Below are positions 4,467 through 61,097 of a stretch of DNA of 62,034 nucleotides, piece by piece (the stretch's first letter is position 1; each line of letters opens with the position of its first letter). The notes beneath the pieces were generated by a model, which worked only from the letters and a program-made list of their open reading frames with translations, did no database searches and was not told where the DNA came from. A program made the position numbers and the translations under genes. The stretch is from the IMG/VR virus record IMGVR_UViG_3300042988_000114, positions 1 to 62,034 of that record. One strand, written 5' to 3'. The DNA comes from a virus.

Positions 4467-5059
4467 GTGTAGTTTATTGTAATAACAAAACGTTTATCAT
4501 GCTCTCTAGGGTGCGAACTAGAATGAAAACGTAAACCATCAAAAATACAAACCCTGTTCTTCTTAGGTGTAGACCTATAGGCTTCTGTGAACGTTGTATT
4601 CTTTGTGTAATGACTGATTACTTCGTCTGTGATATTGGTATCGGGTGGCACAAGTTCATTTAACTTTTCATTGAACAACACTGTATCACCATCAGAGTCA
4701 CTTGCATAGTAGCATGCAGTGTAATGATTGGTTGTAAAGTCAACGTGTGGAGTATTGTAAATCTCTGCAGGCTTCGACGATGTTAGCAATAGACCAACTC
4801 TAATACGGAGAAGGTCTCTAATCTTTACACCATGTGCTGCTTCGATACTGTAGATAATTGGCTTGAAAAATGCATAGTACTGACTTGGCTCGCTGCCAAA
4901 GTTGTAAACAAGGTGTGCCAATCCACCGTTGTTATTGTAACCTTGATATGTTACATCATTTGCATAGTACCATGGAAATTGAAATTGAGTGATGTCTTGC
5001 TCAATTTGATCTGCGTACCCTTGCGGTAGCACGTTATCGATTATTTTTATGTCTGTCAT
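4460..5059 (-). CDS. 2OG-Fe(II) oxygenase (prolyl-4-hydroxylase-like)
   Basis: 199 residues. The double-stranded beta-helix Fe(II) site is visible as HVD (H105, D107), a distal His in RFHSSSHP (H179) and a 2OG-binding Arg in KRFVITIN (R190). Length and order match small phage dioxygenases of the prolyl-hydroxylase group common in T4-like cyanophages. The product is likely a hydroxylated protein or peptide side chain, target unknown. The gene is followed by a strong terminator that starts at its stop codon and preceded by the first tRNA of the array, so it may be read from the end of the tRNA transcript. Confidence 0.8.
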   Translation of the reverse strand: MTDIKIIDNVLPQGYADQIEQDITQFQFPWYYANDVTYQGYNNNGGLAHLVYNFGSEPSQYYAFFKPIIYSIEAAHGVKIRDLLRIRVGLLLTSSKPAEIYNTPHVDFTTNHYTACYYASDSDGDTVLFNEKLNELVPPDTNITDEVISHYTKNTTFTEAYRSTPKKNRVCIFDGLRFHSSSHPREHDKRFVITINYTA

Positions 5060-6342: not shown

Positions 6343-6416
6343 CTTATTTAGAAACACATTCGCTGGACCCATCCAAACCGTAAAATCTTTCAGGAACAAA
6401 TGTGCTTTCAAATAAG
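6343..6416 (-). repeat. Inverted-repeat hairpin element E1
   Basis: Plus-strand arms CTTATTTAGAAACACATT and AATGTGCTTTCAAATAAG enclose about 38 nt. It is the most divergent member of the CATATGTAAACACACT family. Its insert pairs with 6304-6314, giving a pseudoknot arrangement. Confidence 0.65.
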
Positions 6417-6504
6417 TTGCTTCTACCGTTTGGGTTGCTGTGGACTTGCTACTATGATTTCACAAGCTACCCACTACCTATCCAACTTTAACCATCAAAG
6501 CATA

Positions 6505-6610
6505 CTTATATGTAAACACACTGTAGTACATAACACCTTGCTGTCATGCTAACCTGGAATACGGCTCCAATTAAGTATACCGAAATAACATCAATGTGTT
6601 TGCATATAAG
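6505..6610 (-). repeat. Inverted-repeat hairpin element E2
   Basis: Arms CTTATATGTAAACACACT (6505-6522) and AATGTGTTTGCATATAAG (6593-6610) enclose about 70 nt of unrelated sequence. The outer CTTA/TAAG ends covary relative to the CACC/GGTG ends of later copies. Confidence 0.75.
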
Positions 6611-6939
6611 TGGAGGACTGAGAATACATCTCTCCCAACAACACCTCGAGCATTATTACAAACCTTGCGAGTCTGCTTTCTCTCGACTTCCACTAAACCC
6701 ATATTGCTATGTAGCCTAGTCTGCTGTCAGCATCGCCGTTTTTAAAGCCAGGCAGTAGGCTTGTCGTCACATGCTATTCTATGCTTTCTATCCCGTTGAC
6801 CTTGCGAGCCATTAAGTCTTGCGAACTACGAAACTTCCTGCATAAACAGATTTCACCTTGCGAGTTACGTCTGACTAGATTCACTTGCGTGTCTAGTATT
6901 AGATGCTTTTCACATATGACCGAGTCAGTCTTTGCGTTT

Positions 6940-7011
6940 TAATGATAGTGAGAATCGAACCCACCGCATTCTGTTTAAGAGACAGATGTTCTACCAATGA
7001 ACTATATCAAC
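6940..7011 (-). tRNA. tRNA-Lys(CUU), nested in a larger stem
   Basis: D-arm GTTC/GAAC, anticodon stem TCTGT/ACAGA with loop CTCTTAA, T-arm GTGGG/CTCAC with TTCGATT, A73 but no encoded CCA. It is enclosed by GAGTCAG (6922-6928) and CTGACTC (7025-7031), a perfect 7-bp outer stem. Confidence 0.7.
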
Positions 7012-7676
7012 CTACTGCGATGTGCTGACTCAGTTGCTGCGTAAAGTTTTGGCTCTACACAATACAACACACCACGTACCTTTCCTCTTGCGGAGTAATC
7101 AGTCGTCTTTCGCGACCAGCGTCTGCATTACTACAGCCACCACCCACTAAAACTGCATACGAGCTCTTAGGTGCAACCCTTCGAACCAATACACTACCCT
7201 TTCTCATACCAATTAACAAAGTTGGTTTCGCATAGAAGTCAGCACCACCTGTTACTTTCCATCTACTCAAGTTCCCCTTGATGCAATCTCAGGCTTGTAA
7301 GCAAACGTTCTTCCCTATGCACTTTGCGTCACTGTTACATCCACCCGTCGCTGAGTGAACGCTCCCTCACAGGAGTGAGCAGGCTTGTCTAAATGAACTA
7401 TTGCTAGCGGAGTTATGTAGGCATACCTCCTTTGGCTGTGTCACCACAGTTATTCTTCGCATCAAGCTGGGCGAACCATACTCTTTGCAGGACATTAAAC
7501 TGCCCTTTAATTCTTAACATTGCGAAACATACTGGTGGACTACCGCGTTACTCTACGCCAAATAGTAAACTTAATCCAACTGCGTCCAGTTGCGATCAAA
7601 TGCGTCTACTACTCCAGTTCGTTAGTCTGGCTGTGCATGAACTCAAAATCCAGTTCTGCTTCGCAATGTTAAGTAA

Positions 7677-13243: not shown

Positions 13244-13366
13244 TACCATATAGAAGCACTCTCAAATGCAGGCCTAGGAGGAGTCAAGCTCTGAAACCGT
13301 TGCGTATGCATCCACTAAGGTCTCTTCTCCCGCTTTGACTTATGCCAAGAATACTTCTATATGATA
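13244..13366 (-). repeat. Inverted-repeat hairpin element E3
   Basis: Arms TACCATATAGAAGCACT and ATACTTCTATATGATA enclose about 90 nt, within which GTCAAGC/GCTTTGAC forms a further stem. Confidence 0.65.
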
Positions 13367-13508
13367 GCGTTCGGTGGGACTCGAACCCACAGTCACAATT
13401 TTTCAATCGTGTAATTTCAACGGGTTTATCAATTTCTTGAGGAGGCGGTTTAAGAGTCCACCCTAGCCCGTCGCGTATACCAATTCCTGCTACGATAATT
13501 TCATCGCT
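13364..13508 (-). tRNA. tRNA-Leu-like element with interrupted acceptor and anticodon arms
   Basis: The outer stem pairs AGCG...TCG with CGA-A-CGCT, the 5' strand being broken by an inserted hairpin CGAT-GAAATT-ATCG. A Leu-type D-loop (GGAATTGGTA) is followed by an anticodon stem ACGGG/CCCGT whose loop is 42 nt and holds its own GGTGG/CCGCC hairpin. A variable-arm hairpin CACGAT/ATTGTG and a normal T-arm GTGGG-TTCGAGT-CCCAC complete it. It could be a tRNA with two insertions or a decayed tRNA. Confidence 0.35.
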
Positions 13509-13614
13509 ACCATATAGAAACACACTAACGAACCTGGCTGCGGGGATCGAACCCACTTAATTCCCGTAGCACCAGCAGTACTGCTACGATACTGGTTAAT
13601 GTGTTTGCATATGG
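13509..13614 (-). repeat. Inverted-repeat hairpin element E4 with T-arm inside
   Basis: Arms ACCATATAGAAACACACT and AATGTGTTTGCATATGG. The insert contains a perfect-looking T-arm (GTGGG-TTCGATC-CCCGC) and a 7-bp stem CGTAGCA/TGCTACG but no D-arm or matching acceptor strand. Confidence 0.65.
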
Positions 13615-13714
13615 CGGTGCATAAGTTAACCTAAAACTAGTCTAATATCGCGGCCGCAATATTTCATCTATGTCTTAGGATATACACGTTGGTACCTTGC
13701 GTACCTTACGCACC
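13612..13714 (-). tRNA. tRNA-like element with ten-pair acceptor stem and CCA
   Basis: GGTGCGTAAG pairs with CTTATGCACC, followed by G and CCA. Internal hairpins GGTAC/GTACC and AATAT/ATATT do not match standard D and anticodon arms; the T-arm position holds AGTT-TTAGGTT-AACT. Its ends coincide with the arms of E4 and E5. Confidence 0.35.
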
Positions 13715-13816
13715 ATATAAAAACACACTGACAACGTGCTCAGTTACGCTGCTCTTACTGCCGGCCGGACAGGGCGTTCGTCTATTGCTAGACTACCAAT
13801 GTGTTTTTATATGGTG
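13711..13816 (-). repeat. Inverted-repeat hairpin element E5
   Basis: Arms CACCATATAAAAACACACT and AATGTGTTTTTATATGGTG. The insert begins with CAACGTG, complementary to CACGTTG at 13685-13691 upstream, a pseudoknot layout. Internal stems GTCTA-GCAA-TAGAC and CTGTC/GGCAG are present. Confidence 0.75.
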
Positions 13817-13922
13817 ACAGTTTAGTCCGATAACTGTCAAAGAGTTGTTGTAGTTTGCTCTAGAAACAACATACATTTGGTCGTCATGACCGGGCACTCC
13901 ACGTTTGAGCCTTCTGGTTAGA

Positions 13923-14000
13923 TACCATATAGAAGCACACTAACCATCATTGGTACTGTTTGCAACCAGTACGGATTTGAAAATGTGTTTCTATATAGGC
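13923..14000 (-). repeat. Inverted-repeat hairpin element E6 with anticodon-arm-like insert
   Basis: Arms TACCATATAGAAGCACACT and AATGTGTTTCTATATAGG. The 40-nt insert holds GTACTG-GTTGCAAA-CAGTAC, which looks like a Cys-type anticodon hairpin with an enlarged loop. Confidence 0.7.
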
Positions 14001-14084
14001 TCCACCGTTAACGACAGCATTCGTCCTGGCTTTATTTTATGTCGGTTAATGCACGGTGGACACACATGCCGACGGGGTTACAGT

Positions 14085-14222
14085 TTCAATGATGGGATTC
14101 GAACCCACTAACTACCCGTGCGATGCGGGTTGTGCTACGCTCGCCATACATTCAGTTTACTCCGTTACGTACCGGACCAATTGTATGACTTTGCACTATC
14201 TTTCCATGTCGTCTTCATTGTT
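14085..14222 (-). tRNA. tRNA-like element with canonical T-arm and interrupted D-arm
   Basis: A T-arm GTGGG-TTCGAAT-CCCAT is followed by CATTGAA, which pairs over five bases with AACAATG 130 nt upstream. A five-pair anticodon-like stem ACCCG/CGGGT carries CATCGCA, which lacks the universal U33. A D-stem GTGC/GCAC encloses a long inserted hairpin CATACA/TGTATG. No encoded CCA. Confidence 0.35.
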
Positions 14223-14308
14223 ACCATATAAAAACATACTGCTGGCTATGCCCCTGGCGTCCCAGAAGCTATCAGAGTCTAACTGAATGCAATATGTTTT
14301 TATATGGT
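14222..14308 (-). repeat. Inverted-repeat hairpin element E7
   Basis: Arms TACCATATAAAAACATACT and AATATGTTTTTATATGGT; both arms share the change CACACT to CATACT, a compensatory pair. The insert ends with AACTGAATG (14281-14289), complementary to CATTCAGTT at 14149-14157 in the neighbouring tRNA-like unit. Confidence 0.75.
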
Positions 14309-14405
14309 CGGTGCAGGTGAAATCGCATCACCGAGCCAAGTTATGTCTTTTGTACATTATGCACAGAACTCGCTGAGGCTTCCTCAGTACCTAGGATATG
14401 CACCA
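14305..14405 (-). tRNA. tRNA-like element with acceptor, D- and T-arms but abnormal middle
   Basis: Acceptor TGGTGCA/TGCACCG, A73 and CCA; D-arm TCCT-AGGTACTG-AGGA; T-arm GGTGA-TGCGATT-TCACC. The 47 nt between D- and T-arms form nested stems (CGAGTT/AACTTG, TGTGCAT/ATGTACA) and show no normal 7-nt anticodon loop. Length about 101 nt. Confidence 0.4.
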
Positions 14406-14483
14406 TATGTAAACACACTATTAGTTTCTCCATCATCCGACTTTAAAATCAGCTGCGGTTTAAATAATGTGTTTGCATATGGT
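14401..14483 (-). repeat. Inverted-repeat hairpin element E8
   Basis: Arms CACCATATGTAAACACACT and AATGTGTTTGCATATGGTG. On the minus strand it begins exactly at the CCA end of tRNA-Lys(UUU), so the hairpin is the linker after a normal tRNA. Confidence 0.8.
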
Positions 14484-14555
14484 GGGACTGTTCGGGCTCG
14501 AACCGAAAACCTACCGGTTAAAAGCCGGTTGCTCTAACCATTGAGCTACAATCCC
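14480..14555 (-). tRNA. tRNA-Lys(UUU)
   Basis: Acceptor GGGATTG/CAGTCCC, A73 and CCA, D-arm AGCTCAATGGTTAGAGC, anticodon stem ACCGG/CCGGT with CTTTTAA, T-loop TTCGAGC. Confidence 0.9.
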
Positions 14556-20248: not shown

Positions 20249-20257
20249 AAAAACTTT

Positions 20258-20350
20258 ACCATATGTAAACACACTGAGCAAACAGCTCCTATTACAGAGT
20301 CAGTTGCTTCGTCCTTTTACAGACTTTTACTAATGTGTTTGCATATGGTG
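20258..20350 (-). repeat. Inverted-repeat hairpin element E9
   Basis: Arms ACCATATGTAAACACACT and AATGTGTTTGCATATGGTG, the same sequence as E8 although 5.8 kb away; the insert is unrelated. On the minus strand it starts at the CCA end of the next tRNA-like element. Confidence 0.8.
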
Positions 20351-20447
20351 TAGTAACTGAGAGTTGAACTCAGAACGAATACTGTCATTTTACAATGGGT
20401 AATATTACCTCCCACCGCTGTATGCCCCTCGGATAATTACTTCCTAC
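20346..20447 (-). tRNA. tRNA-like element with normal 3' half
   Basis: T-arm CTGAG-TTCAACT-CTCAG, acceptor 3' strand TTACTAC, A73 and CCA are normal. The 5' strand GTAG-GAA-GTAA carries a three-base insertion, and the middle holds the palindrome GGTAATATTACC in place of a standard anticodon arm. Confidence 0.4.
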
Positions 20448-20488
20448 TCACATACAGGCACAGCCGTTACGCCTGTTTACCACAAACT

Positions 20489-20927: not shown

Positions 20928-21019
20928 TGGCGGAAAGCAGAGGAGTCGAACCCCATCCCCGTTAAGAGAACCTGGTTTTCAAGGCCAGTCGCAGGACCAT
21001 CCCCGCTGCATTACTTTCC
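20928..21019 (-). tRNA. tRNA-Ser(UGA)
   Basis: Acceptor GGAAAGT/GCTTTCC, G73 and CCA, anticodon stem CTGG/CCAG with CTTGAAA, long variable arm, T-loop TTCGACT. Confidence 0.9.
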
Positions 21020-58233: not shown

Positions 58234-59865
58234 TTATTTATTGTGGATATTGTCCCGCAGAAACTCGTAGTGAGTAGGTAATGTGTCAATATGGGCTAGC
58301 ACCTCTTCTTTGTGTTGTAGCCAGTTATCGTATACTTGCTTACGCATCTCTGGAGTTTCGCCAATTCGAGCATCTTCGTACCGCAGGAAGTTTGGGTCTA
58401 CTGGGTTGTACCCCATGCCTGCTGCGATATAAATAATTCCGCCCATGTTGTTATCAAACCTGCGAATTCTATGCATACGCATGCCTAAGTCTGTAGTTGA
58501 CCTAAGATCGTGGTCCAATGTTGATAGTCCCGACAAACTAGATAAATTAGACATAGTTCTAGAATAACTAACATCCCCAGACACTTCTTTCCAGTACGGT
58601 GTGTCATTGCGGCAGCTCAGGGCATAATGTTGACTGATAAAGTCTTTAAATCCTAGAATCTGCTCCTGGAATCCGTAGTTAAACAAATCCACATCATAAT
58701 TGCTAACAATACCGTTACGCATTGCTAGAGTGCTGCATAGTTTAACAATGCCTTCATGTGTTAGCATCAATCCAGTAGATTCTAGTGGCTCAATGAAACC
58801 ATTAGCAAGGCCGATTCCCACTACGTTCTTAACCCAGGCACGTTCATGAACCCCGTGTTTAATTTTGATGTGTCGAACTTCGCACTTTTCTGCACGCTCT
58901 GCATCTGGAAAAATCATACGATTGCTTTTTAAGTGTTTGCGTAACTGTGCCTCTGCTTCTGCTTCCGTTGCATGTTTGCTACTATAGACATAGCCAGTAC
59001 CAATACGATTCCATAACGGAATGTTCCACACCCAGCCTGCTTCAATTGCAGTGCATGATGTGTAATTCTCCATTTCTTTTTCTTTGTCAATGTACGGAAT
59101 AACTGTTGCAACCGCTCTGTCGTTTAACAAAGTGTCGTTGAAACTAATAAAAGGAACCTTAAGTGTCTGATCCAATAAGATGCTGCGGAATCCCGAACAA
59201 TCAATAAACAAATCAGCGTGGATGTGATTGCCTTCTTTAGTGACTATTTTTTCAATACTCTCGTCTTCTCGTTGAATTATTTTGTCAACTGTTGCGACAA
59301 TATGCTGCATCCCAGTTGGCAAACAAACATGAGTACGCAGATACTCACCAAACAATGCTGCATCCATGTGATACGCAGTATCATGTTTAAAATTAAATCC
59401 CCTAACTTTAAAATCCTCGTTACGAGTCATTTTATTTCGGTCAGTCATTAAAATACTGTCGTGGTAAAATTCTGCAAAGTTTTCATTGGGAATTGTTGGA
59501 TTGTCAGCTTTTGCTAAAAACCAATCCATTGGGCCACGCGGCTTTTCTGTGAAATCCATGACCCCAAATGGATAATGAAATTTATGCGGTTGTTCAGTTG
59601 GGTTTTCTCTAAAGTCAATGAACTTAATACTGGTCTTGTATGTTGCATTGCAATGATGCATCCAATCTTCGTCTTTAAGGCCGATCATTGTTAAGAATTG
59701 GTTAATATGACCAATAGTGCTTTCGCCAACCCCAATTGTAGGCACCGTTGGACTTTCTACTAGAGTTAGTTTAATATTCGGCAGCAATCTAGATATTCCT
59801 GCTGCTGTCATCCATCCACTCGACCCTCCACCTACAATACAAATACTTTTTATATCGTGTCTCAT
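58234..59865 (-). CDS. Flavin-dependent (tryptophan-type) halogenase
   Basis: About 543 residues. GGGSSGWMTAAG (about 12-23) is the FAD-binding motif. CNATYKTSIKF places the catalytic Lys at about residue 77; AGWVWNIP is the GWxWxIP motif characteristic of flavin-dependent halogenases; EPLESTG holds the conserved active-site Glu. All key residues are intact, so it is probably active. These enzymes halogenate tryptophan or other aromatics, free or protein-bound, using reduced FAD from a reductase not seen here. It is coupled to the upstream U32-like gene. Confidence 0.9.
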   Translation of the reverse strand: MRHDIKSICIVGGGSSGWMTAAGISRLLPNIKLTLVESPTVPTIGVGESTIGHINQFLTMIGLKDEDWMHHCNATYKTSIKFIDFRENPTEQPHKFHYPFGVMDFTEKPRGPMDWFLAKADNPTIPNENFAEFYHDSILMTDRNKMTRNEDFKVRGFNFKHDTAYHMDAALFGEYLRTHVCLPTGMQHIVATVDKIIQREDESIEKIVTKEGNHIHADLFIDCSGFRSILLDQTLKVPFISFNDTLLNDRAVATVIPYIDKEKEMENYTSCTAIEAGWVWNIPLWNRIGTGYVYSSKHATEAEAEAQLRKHLKSNRMIFPDAERAEKCEVRHIKIKHGVHERAWVKNVVGIGLANGFIEPLESTGLMLTHEGIVKLCSTLAMRNGIVSNYDVDLFNYGFQEQILGFKDFISQHYALSCRNDTPYWKEVSGDVSYSRTMSNLSSLSGLSTLDHDLRSTTDLGMRMHRIRRFDNNMGGIIYIAAGMGYNPVDPNFLRYEDARIGETPEMRKQVYDNWLQHKEEVLAHIDTLPTHYEFLRDNIHNK

Positions 59866-59867
59866 AA

Positions 59868-61097
59868 TCAATTAACCTTTCTTAATTGTAATGCCGAATC
59901 AATGTCTTGAAATCCAAATGTGCGTTCACATTCGTGACAATCCCAACACTGATTGCGGCAAGTTCGTAAAATCTTTTCTAACCTCTTACCAGGATCTGTT
60001 GCCCATATGCCGGTGTATGGTTTATATGTTTTGCGCCAGTCCTCTTTTGTATAGCGGGTATCAATCCAACCAGGTATCCAGTTATGCACTGGGCCTAAAT
60101 TATTATCAATGACTTCATCAAAATTATCCGCATAAACTGTTTGCCCAACAAACGATACCGATTGTTTAAACTTATTAATGTTATCGTAATACCATACTGC
60201 CTTCATATGTTTTGCATCTTCTGCTTTAAACATAGGGGTAGTTAAGCGCCCCGAATATTTAAAAATGTCTACTAAATCCGCAAACTCCTTAAAGGTGTCC
60301 GCTTGTCCTGCTACTAGGTTAATTCCCGAACGTGGTAACTCTGCAAACTCGCTGTGACCTCTCCAGCCATTACAACTTAGGTCTGCAGGGCCACGGAAGT
60401 ATTCAGTACCAATTACTTCGCCAACGCTGTCATGCTCTTTCTTAAACGGGCAGTGATAGATGCAAGCCTCGGCAACTAACAAACTGGTCATCAACTTCTT
60501 CTGAGGGTTAAGACTGTTTAAATAATCCTGTGCTCGCTTGATACGCTTTAGTTCTCGGATGTTGCGATTCAGGCTACGATCCAATAGAATGGTGTTGTAG
60601 CCCAAGTATGCGTAATCAATAAACTGCTGTGCATCAGAGACAATTTGATTCACTGTGCTTTTCCAACGCATGTCAGGGCAACGTTGTTGAAGGATACCCA
60701 TGCGTAGGATATGTTCGCTGCTCATAGTGCAACTACGCAATCCTCTATCGTAGTACCCACCAATCCATTCTACAAATTGGCCCCTGATTGTGTCGTCCCA
60801 CACTAGCTCATGCGGCACTTCAACAGTGTTAAATGTAAGACTAATTTCTACACCAAGCTCTTCTTGTATTTTAAACAAGTAATCAATTTGCTCGTCGCTG
60901 GCTTCAACACCCATTGGGTTGCCAGCACGTTTCTTTTGACCTTGCCATTCATAATAAAAGTACTTGCCAAAATAAATGTCGTGCAGACTTTCCAGATAAG
61001 CTGGATCTGCATTTTTCATTATTTCGTAATATGTACTAGAAAACTCGCCGTGAAATTGATCGTAGTGTGCGATCGAAAACCGCTTTTTGAAATTCAT
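59868..61097 (-). CDS. U32/UbiU-like TIM-barrel protein with Cys cluster (candidate)
   Basis: 409 residues. The segment SSEHILRMGILQQRCPDMRWKSTVNQIVSDAQQFIDYAYLGYNTILLDRSLNRNIRELKRIK follows the strand order of U32-family proteins, and Cys residues at EACIYHCPF, LSCNGW and CRNQCWDCHEC could bind an Fe-S cluster as in UbiU/UbiV and RlhA. These are hydroxylases or peptidase-like proteins acting on rings or RNA. The match is by pattern only. It overlaps the halogenase gene by a few bases, suggesting a joint modification pathway. Confidence 0.5.
   Translation of the reverse strand: MNFKKRFSIAHYDQFHGEFSSTYYEIMKNADPAYLESLHDIYFGKYFYYEWQGQKKRAGNPMGVEASDEQIDYLFKIQEELGVEISLTFNTVEVPHELVWDDTIRGQFVEWIGGYYDRGLRSCTMSSEHILRMGILQQRCPDMRWKSTVNQIVSDAQQFIDYAYLGYNTILLDRSLNRNIRELKRIKRAQDYLNSLNPQKKLMTSLLVAEACIYHCPFKKEHDSVGEVIGTEYFRGPADLSCNGWRGHSEFAELPRSGINLVAGQADTFKEFADLVDIFKYSGRLTTPMFKAEDAKHMKAVWYYDNINKFKQSVSFVGQTVYADNFDEVIDNNLGPVHNWIPGWIDTRYTKEDWRKTYKPYTGIWATDPGKRLEKILRTCRNQCWDCHECERTFGFQDIDSALQLRKVN

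Follow-up and report, generated by a model that had tools for sequence, protein, structure and literature searches.

Candidate RNA cassettes in a common terminal stem abut tRNA ends in phage tRNA arrays

Long terminal stems are known from the rRNA stalks that enclose 16S and 23S rRNA and from the RNase III-processed RNAs of the phage T4 tRNA cluster, and in integrons gene cassettes exchange their content at attC sites, which are constant imperfect inverted repeats. In enterobacteria, transcribed spacers of tRNA operons (3'ETS-leuZ and others) are reportedly able to act as regulatory RNAs. In mitochondria, RNAs situated between tRNAs are excised by RNase P and RNase Z, an arrangement known as tRNA punctuation (e.g. 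PMC11649783), and the tRNA islands of phages contain the structured RNAs GOLLD and ROOL (RF02032; PMC12286853), to which no function is assigned.

Here, we analyzed the 62-kb phage contig IMGVR_UViG_3300042988_000114 from IMG/VR over its full 62,034 nucleotides (hereafter the window). It contains tail sheath and terminase genes, the terminase being 55% identical to that of PA5oct-like jumbo phages, and a protein at 58234-59871 (minus strand) that matches the phage tryptophan halogenase family (PHROG 2928, E 3e-154). ARAGORN and Rfam place 34 tRNAs between 5.0 and 25.2 kb, all of them on the minus strand, and this tRNA sense is used below to describe the elements. A weak tRNA-Sec-like match at 20932-21019 (minus strand; 34.9 bits versus a gathering score of 47) lies beside tRNA-Phe and was not called by ARAGORN. 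The array also includes a GOLLD RNA (3' domain model; 6615-7075, minus strand) with a tRNA-Lys(CUU) inside. Only the tRNAs and GOLLD exceeded the Rfam 15 gathering thresholds in the window, where no model matched the hairpin elements described below; with E values of up to 10 admitted for positions 5000-25500, the sole match over an element was a chance microRNA hit (6504-6611, 21.4 bits, cut-off 100).

A single arm sequence occurs twelve times in the window with at most three mismatches (dinucleotide shuffles: mean 1.18, maximum 5), and the paired arms form nine hairpin elements, each a stem around an insert that we call cargo. Three of them lie outside 13244-14483 (6345-6414, 6507-6608 and 20260-20347) and six within it, the six as located in a preliminary description of this sequence, which had also stressed a strictly alternating orientation of the arms; the arms do recur, but their alternation is no more than the look of a series of hairpins. 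Following the minus strand, E8 (14401-14484, arms 14404-14481) consists of the stem and a 46-nt cargo, and its arm 1 starts in the CCA of tRNA-Lys(UUU) (14480-14555, minus strand), the isotype that most often has an element downstream. With ends at 14481 and 14480, respectively, E8 and this tRNA overlap by 2 nt, exactly the start at the CCA end that had been proposed for the arm. E7 (14222-14309, arms 14225-14306) has the stem variant AAAAACAT/ATGTTTTT and a 50-nt cargo with a homologue in locus L044, E6 (13923-14000, arms 13926-13997) a 40-nt cargo that is identical in L052, E5 (13711-13816, arms 13714-13813) a 68-nt cargo, and E4 (13508-13616, arms 13511-13613) a 71-nt cargo with a tRNA-like T-arm, whose family is also present in L001, L042 and L081 of the collected set, with one more similar sequence in L031. 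The arms of E3 (13244-13366) are divergent, CATATAGAAGTATTCT and AGAGTGCTTCTATATG, and enclose an 85-nt cargo found also in L052, L031 and L086. Farther away, E9 (20257-20350, arms 20260-20347; 56-nt cargo) lies between a tRNA-like unit and tRNA-Tyr, and E2 (6504-6611, arms 6507-6608; 70-nt cargo) follows at once on the 3' end of the GOLLD RNA upstream of it, which reads ...CCTCCA, an order of GOLLD and element seen also in L006, L098, L103 and L157. E1 (6345-6414; 38-nt cargo) keeps the stem core, its outer arm being swapped for another complementary sequence (TATTTGAA/TCTAAATA). No cargo of the window was called a tRNA by ARAGORN or RF00005.

The units between the hairpins, likewise on the minus strand, had been regarded as tRNA-like. 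This is true of some, which have a T-arm and an acceptor-like stem, but not of others, and none of the five internal units was called a tRNA by ARAGORN or by Rfam at the gathering score. Between E8 and E7 (14310-14400), an acceptor-like stem, a T-arm-like hairpin and an ACCA end were recognized by inspection. The unit between E7 and E6 (14001-14221) is another undescribed RNA, with a T-arm and an apparent insertion between acceptor and D-arm; over its first ~130 nt it has conserved counterparts in 11 further contigs (identity of 80-98% in the ones shown). The unit between E6 and E5 (13817-13922) ends in TGACAG..CTGTCA-CCA and is conserved in five contigs, that between E5 and E4 (13617-13710) has a terminal stem GGTGCGTAAG/CTTATGCACC followed by GCCA and is 93-95% identical in L042 and L078, and that between E4 and E3 (13368-13507) has a T-arm and a tRNA-like 3' half. 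Upstream of E9, the unit at 20351-20488 (minus strand) is a tRNA-like RNA that is conserved in part in L114 and L084. It has a T-arm, ACCA and a 7-bp acceptor-like stem (GTGGTAA/TTACTAC) with G3.U70, which is the identity pair of alanine tRNAs, but some 100 nt of different sequence take the place of its D and anticodon arms.

A sample of 272 non-redundant copies from 144 IMG/VR contigs was collected with patterns for the arm pair, which are more specific than a covariance model of the nine copies, the cargoes being mutually unalignable; the strand of the nearest tRNA was the sole guide to the orientation of each copy. Read in this sense, the element is 5'-(AC)CATATNNAAACACATT-cargo-AGTGTGTTTNNATATG(GT)-3', with a cargo of about 30-90 nt. 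Its stem has a conserved core, AAACACAUU/AGUGUGUUU, and a nearly fixed inner core, AAACACATT/AGTGTGTTT; pair 15 is a U.G wobble in 82% of the copies and otherwise C-G or U-A, pair 7 departs from Watson-Crick pairing in about 60%, usually as A.C or C.A, and the outer six arm bases are variable yet paired. Since most loci were retrieved with patterns that contain the core, its conservation is overestimated, whereas the covariation and position results are not conditional on this. Near tRNAs, 244 of 275 core pairs have at least seven of eight outer pairs, compared with 2 of 275 in the unreversed control, and the 244 include 27 elements with outer arms unlike CATAT. The strands of arm and tRNA agreed in 229 of 230 cases in a first set that was oriented by the arm itself. 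One-sided changes, read in the tRNA sense with positions 7 and 15 excluded, yielded 103 G-U pairs and 16 A-C mismatches (p = 1e-16); since pairing at the level of double-stranded DNA or of the opposite strand would erase or reverse this G-U bias, the stem is assigned to RNA of the tRNA strand. Swapping arms between elements reduced pairing from 90.1% to 81.7% and the doubly changed cells from 335 to 122. The complementary changes private to each element, to which the preliminary description had drawn attention, are real: for adjacent elements, pairing over all 16 arm positions was 15.4 within an element versus 14.6 across the intervening unit (p = 4e-10, n = 79), and 5.96 versus 5.51 over the six most variable positions. 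Pairing of arm 2 of one element with arm 1 of the next, being the weaker, was rejected. We regard the architecture of the element as near certain, and the sequences show that the hairpins are real RNA-level structures on the tRNA strand, with conserved pairing and with borders at mature tRNA ends, as had been suggested. An intrinsic terminator was rejected as a candidate: the stem is A+T-rich, has a loop of 30-90 nt and is followed directly by a tRNA or GGT, and is not a GC-rich hairpin with a U run.

Among the 125 elements with a tRNA ending no more than 40 nt upstream, 118 start at one offset, at which the arm shares its CA with the CCA of the tRNA. As CCA is encoded by 97% of all tRNAs in the element loci, it is not borrowed from the arm. 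A tRNA starts within 3 nt of the stem end in 67 elements; only 42 of the 272 are exactly flush with tRNAs on both sides, and many others have 1-17 nt or a non-tRNA unit downstream. The borders thus coincide with mature tRNA ends, as in a tRNA-punctuated RNA, on the downstream side only in a subset. Elements also follow GOLLD RNA and non-tRNA units. An element is present behind tRNA-Lys(UUU) in 81 of 114 cases (71%), behind Leu(UAG), Gln(UUG) and Glu(UUC) in 12-15% and behind nearly all other isotypes in 0-3%, and the Lys/Gln/Glu(UUN) preference recalls the tRNAs attacked by anticodon nucleases. A test that ignores the arm sequence detected CCA-flush stems scoring at least 11 behind 222 of 2457 tRNAs (14 in shuffles), and these include unrelated sequences and other RNA families of the same geometry. 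A separate RNA family of ~121 nt with a CCA-flush terminal stem of 16-20 bp lies mostly behind tRNA-Glu(UUC) (L223:4268-4388, L029, L085, L154, L164, L169, L181, L196 and L234), and a second family of ~146 nt has a CCA-flush stem as well (L013:5855-6002, L176 and L191); one member of each was scanned against Rfam and had no significant match.

The cargoes fall into 166 similarity families, 56 with more than one member and 110 singletons, and family richness is unsaturated (Chao1 about 400). They fold better than shuffled sequences (mean z -0.59, p = 1e-16), and several recurring families preserve their secondary structure by compensatory changes, for example at 7 of 13 and 11 of 13 pairs in two families of seven members each. 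The sole motif common among them is the tRNA T-loop GGTTCGA, with a T-arm in 28 of 272 cargoes compared with 1.9 expected by chance; the cargoes of 14 loci had no Rfam match. Anticodon-arm mimics are not enriched (7 of the 166 families, 3.4 expected by chance), and a role of the cargoes as decoys of anticodon nucleases was rejected. In Sinorhizobium phage Phosso, a 20-bp hairpin (L279:4920-4985), the tip of which, GGG-TTGTTAA-CCC, is an apparent copy of the tRNA-Asn(GUU) anticodon stem-loop, is located just after tRNA-Asn, itself enclosed in a 19-bp stem (4805-4910); a decoy function of this one hairpin is possible.

Cargoes turn over and move between sites. Sixteen of the 25 testable families occur behind at least two different tRNA isotypes, 45 of the 56 recurring families are combined with two or more arm variants, and the 81 elements at the Lys(UUU) site by themselves represent 61 families. 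When the tRNA-Lys flanks of two elements are at least 90% identical, a cargo family is shared in 7 of 246 pairs. L052 has most units in common with the window (93-98% identity) in a different order: E6 retains its left neighbour there, but on the right, from a junction that falls within the arm, another unit follows, and after the homologue of unit 13817-13922, where the window has E5, L052 has a different CCA-flush stem, CATATCAATCCGC...GCGGATTGATATG, i.e. the sequence changed and the pairing stayed. Phages with the same units keep the pairing, the opposite of the loss of complementarity among homologues that the preliminary description had named as speaking against it. An empty version, with arms and a 5-nt loop, is present in L150. 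Conserved, structured insert families thus recur behind different tRNAs and in different arm variants, which makes the insert the apparent product and the stem its frame; the cargo appears to be under selection, and the earlier view of the element as just a spacer or processing stem is not supported.

The strict pair pattern has at least 120 matches in viral contigs, none in an exact search of 84,980 prokaryote genomes and none in five cultured relatives. A relaxed core pair was found in two of 11 cultured phages, once in Vibrio phage 2.275.O and once in Phosso, and in none of the rest, six further phages among them. The Vibrio phage copy (189696-189782) starts a few bases after a TATAAT box, so that transcription appears to begin at its 5' end, and extends to tRNA-Arg(UCU); the Phosso copy (431431-431505) starts with the A of the tRNA-Val CCA, and 3-4 nt separate it from tRNA-Arg. 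The arms had no BLAST match among 50,697 phage records, their length of 19 nt being near the detection limit of this method. Two element-bearing contigs encode a tmRNA, of the betaproteobacterial type in L066 (7158-7524) and of the alphaproteobacterial or permuted type in L157 (754-1160), hinting at the hosts. As to known RNA classes, the TROVE domain (PF05731) of the Y RNA/YrlA-Ro60 system was found in none of 21 contigs, which are fragments, and YrlA matches were sub-threshold and over tRNAs only; group I or II introns and self-cleaving ribozymes were rejected, no supporting motif or Rfam match being found. The literature on phage tRNA arrays, GOLLD and tRNA-cluster RNAs, in a coverage mostly outside subscription journals and preprints, yielded no description of the elements.

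We propose, with a probability of about one half, that each element is a mobile cassette in which a shared terminal stem holds a small structured RNA, and that tRNA processing releases it as in tRNA punctuation. The constant stem would frame a cargo RNA of ~30-90 nt, its outer segment tolerating any change that preserves pairing, and the cassette would be co-transcribed with the tRNAs, no spacer being needed. The first two bases of the cassette coincide with the CA in the CCA of the upstream tRNA, and its final base is in many cases the first base of the following tRNA or tRNA-like unit. The 3' maturation of the upstream tRNA would free the 5' end of the cassette and RNase P cleavage of the downstream tRNA its 3' end, the predicted product being a near-blunt, stem-closed RNA that resists exonucleases, and the constant arms would let cargoes swap between sites and phages by recombination. 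Such punctuation would account for the missing spacers, the CCA overlap, the tRNA-like neighbours and the apparent transcription start of the Vibrio phage copy. It would need a precise cut after a base-paired CCA by a putative enzyme. The tRNA-like neighbouring units could be RNase P substrates; at a non-tRNA downstream unit, RNase P would not be expected to act unless the unit is tRNA-like. By itself, tRNA punctuation leaves the invariant core and the copies with non-tRNA neighbours unexplained, and the near-invariant core, which pure punctuation does not require, points to a specific binding protein or nuclease. From the diversity, structure and rapid turnover of the cargoes, the natural guess is a role in trans, with host translation, RNA metabolism or decay, or defence as the probable targets. 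That large phages trade several hundred such trans-acting RNAs on the same stem in their tRNA arrays, by preference behind tRNA-Lys(UUU), released by tRNA maturation during infection, is a tentative proposal to which we give somewhat less than even odds.

The main alternative is a processing stem for a dsRNA-specific nuclease, host RNase III or similar, with cleavage of the arms separating the tRNAs and the cargo being released or discarded. We consider it rather unlikely. The long stem would enclose an RNA transcribed in the tRNA strand and, with 16-20 bp, a conserved mismatch and a wobble, has the size of an RNase III substrate; its core sequence is conserved, although a nearly invariant 9-nt core is not needed by RNase III. 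No RNase III domain was found in 21 long element-bearing contigs, but a host enzyme, expected to be present, could serve, and several elements adjoin non-tRNA units where RNase P may not act. A discarded insert would leave conserved cargo families with compensatory changes unexplained. Quite improbable is a hairpin for the tRNA 3' end itself, in which the stem sequesters the CCA, above all of tRNA-Lys(UUU), until needed or against tRNA-targeting host toxins and the insert is of minor importance: elements also lie after GOLLD RNA and non-tRNA units, the Vibrio phage 2.275.O element precedes its tRNA instead, insert families are conserved and structured, and anticodon-arm mimics are not in excess, even though the strong bias to Lys(UUU) would fit and tRNA-targeting defences and their evasion by phage tRNAs are known (PMC10264068, PMC11555353). 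Cargo turnover, movement between sites and the junction inside the arm next to E6 in L052 might also be the work of MITE-like or attC-like inverted repeats acting in DNA, as a mobile element or recombination site that brings along passenger sequence and has tRNA 3' ends as its target. This is very improbable given the exclusive tRNA orientation (a single exception), the one-sided changes that keep G-U in the RNA sense and not in the antisense, and the conserved cargo structure; transposase and target-site duplication were not seen. By eye, the elements showed no attC-type R'/R'' boxes. Chance inverted repeats or an assembly artefact are refuted by hundreds of independent contigs, covariation and exact positioning.

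If the cassette proposal is true, phage non-coding RNA gains at one stroke a class that comprises hundreds of families, some of the intergenic space of phage tRNA arrays is explained, GOLLD-bearing tRNA islands acquire a common architecture, and a swappable RNA repertoire can be built without extra processing signals; were the cargoes a library, exchange of cargoes at fixed sockets would supply a phage with different RNA effectors. The role of extra stable RNAs in phage tRNA clusters would also become testable, as elements that match the core are present in two cultured phages.

To our knowledge, a constant CCA-flush stem carrying hundreds of exchangeable RNAs, here in tRNA clusters of large aquatic phages, is like no known system; its functional class is deduced from sequence alone. 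As in mitochondrial tRNA punctuation, RNAs lie flush between tRNAs without spacer, so that tRNA maturation would set their ends; unlike there, the phage RNAs are short, non-coding and hypervariable, share a stem and border on an encoded CCA, and their excision is a proposal. The spacer RNAs of the 3'ETS-leuZ type are also transcribed spacers of tRNA transcripts, but they have no common stem, cassette exchange or CCA-flush stem. GOLLD and ROOL occupy the same phage tRNA arrays, and several elements directly follow GOLLD; the elements differ from them in being short, with a constant stem, unrelated inserts and no match to an Rfam model. As in the rRNA stalks and the T4 tRNA-cluster RNAs, a structured RNA is enclosed by a long terminal stem within a transcript that contains tRNAs, whereas the arm of the elements is nearly invariant over hundreds of unrelated cargoes and is CCA-flush. 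Integron cassettes likewise combine constant imperfect inverted repeats with variable content swapped between sites; in the phage elements, by contrast, the constraint is on RNA of one strand, there is no ORF, and the arms enclose the cargo itself.
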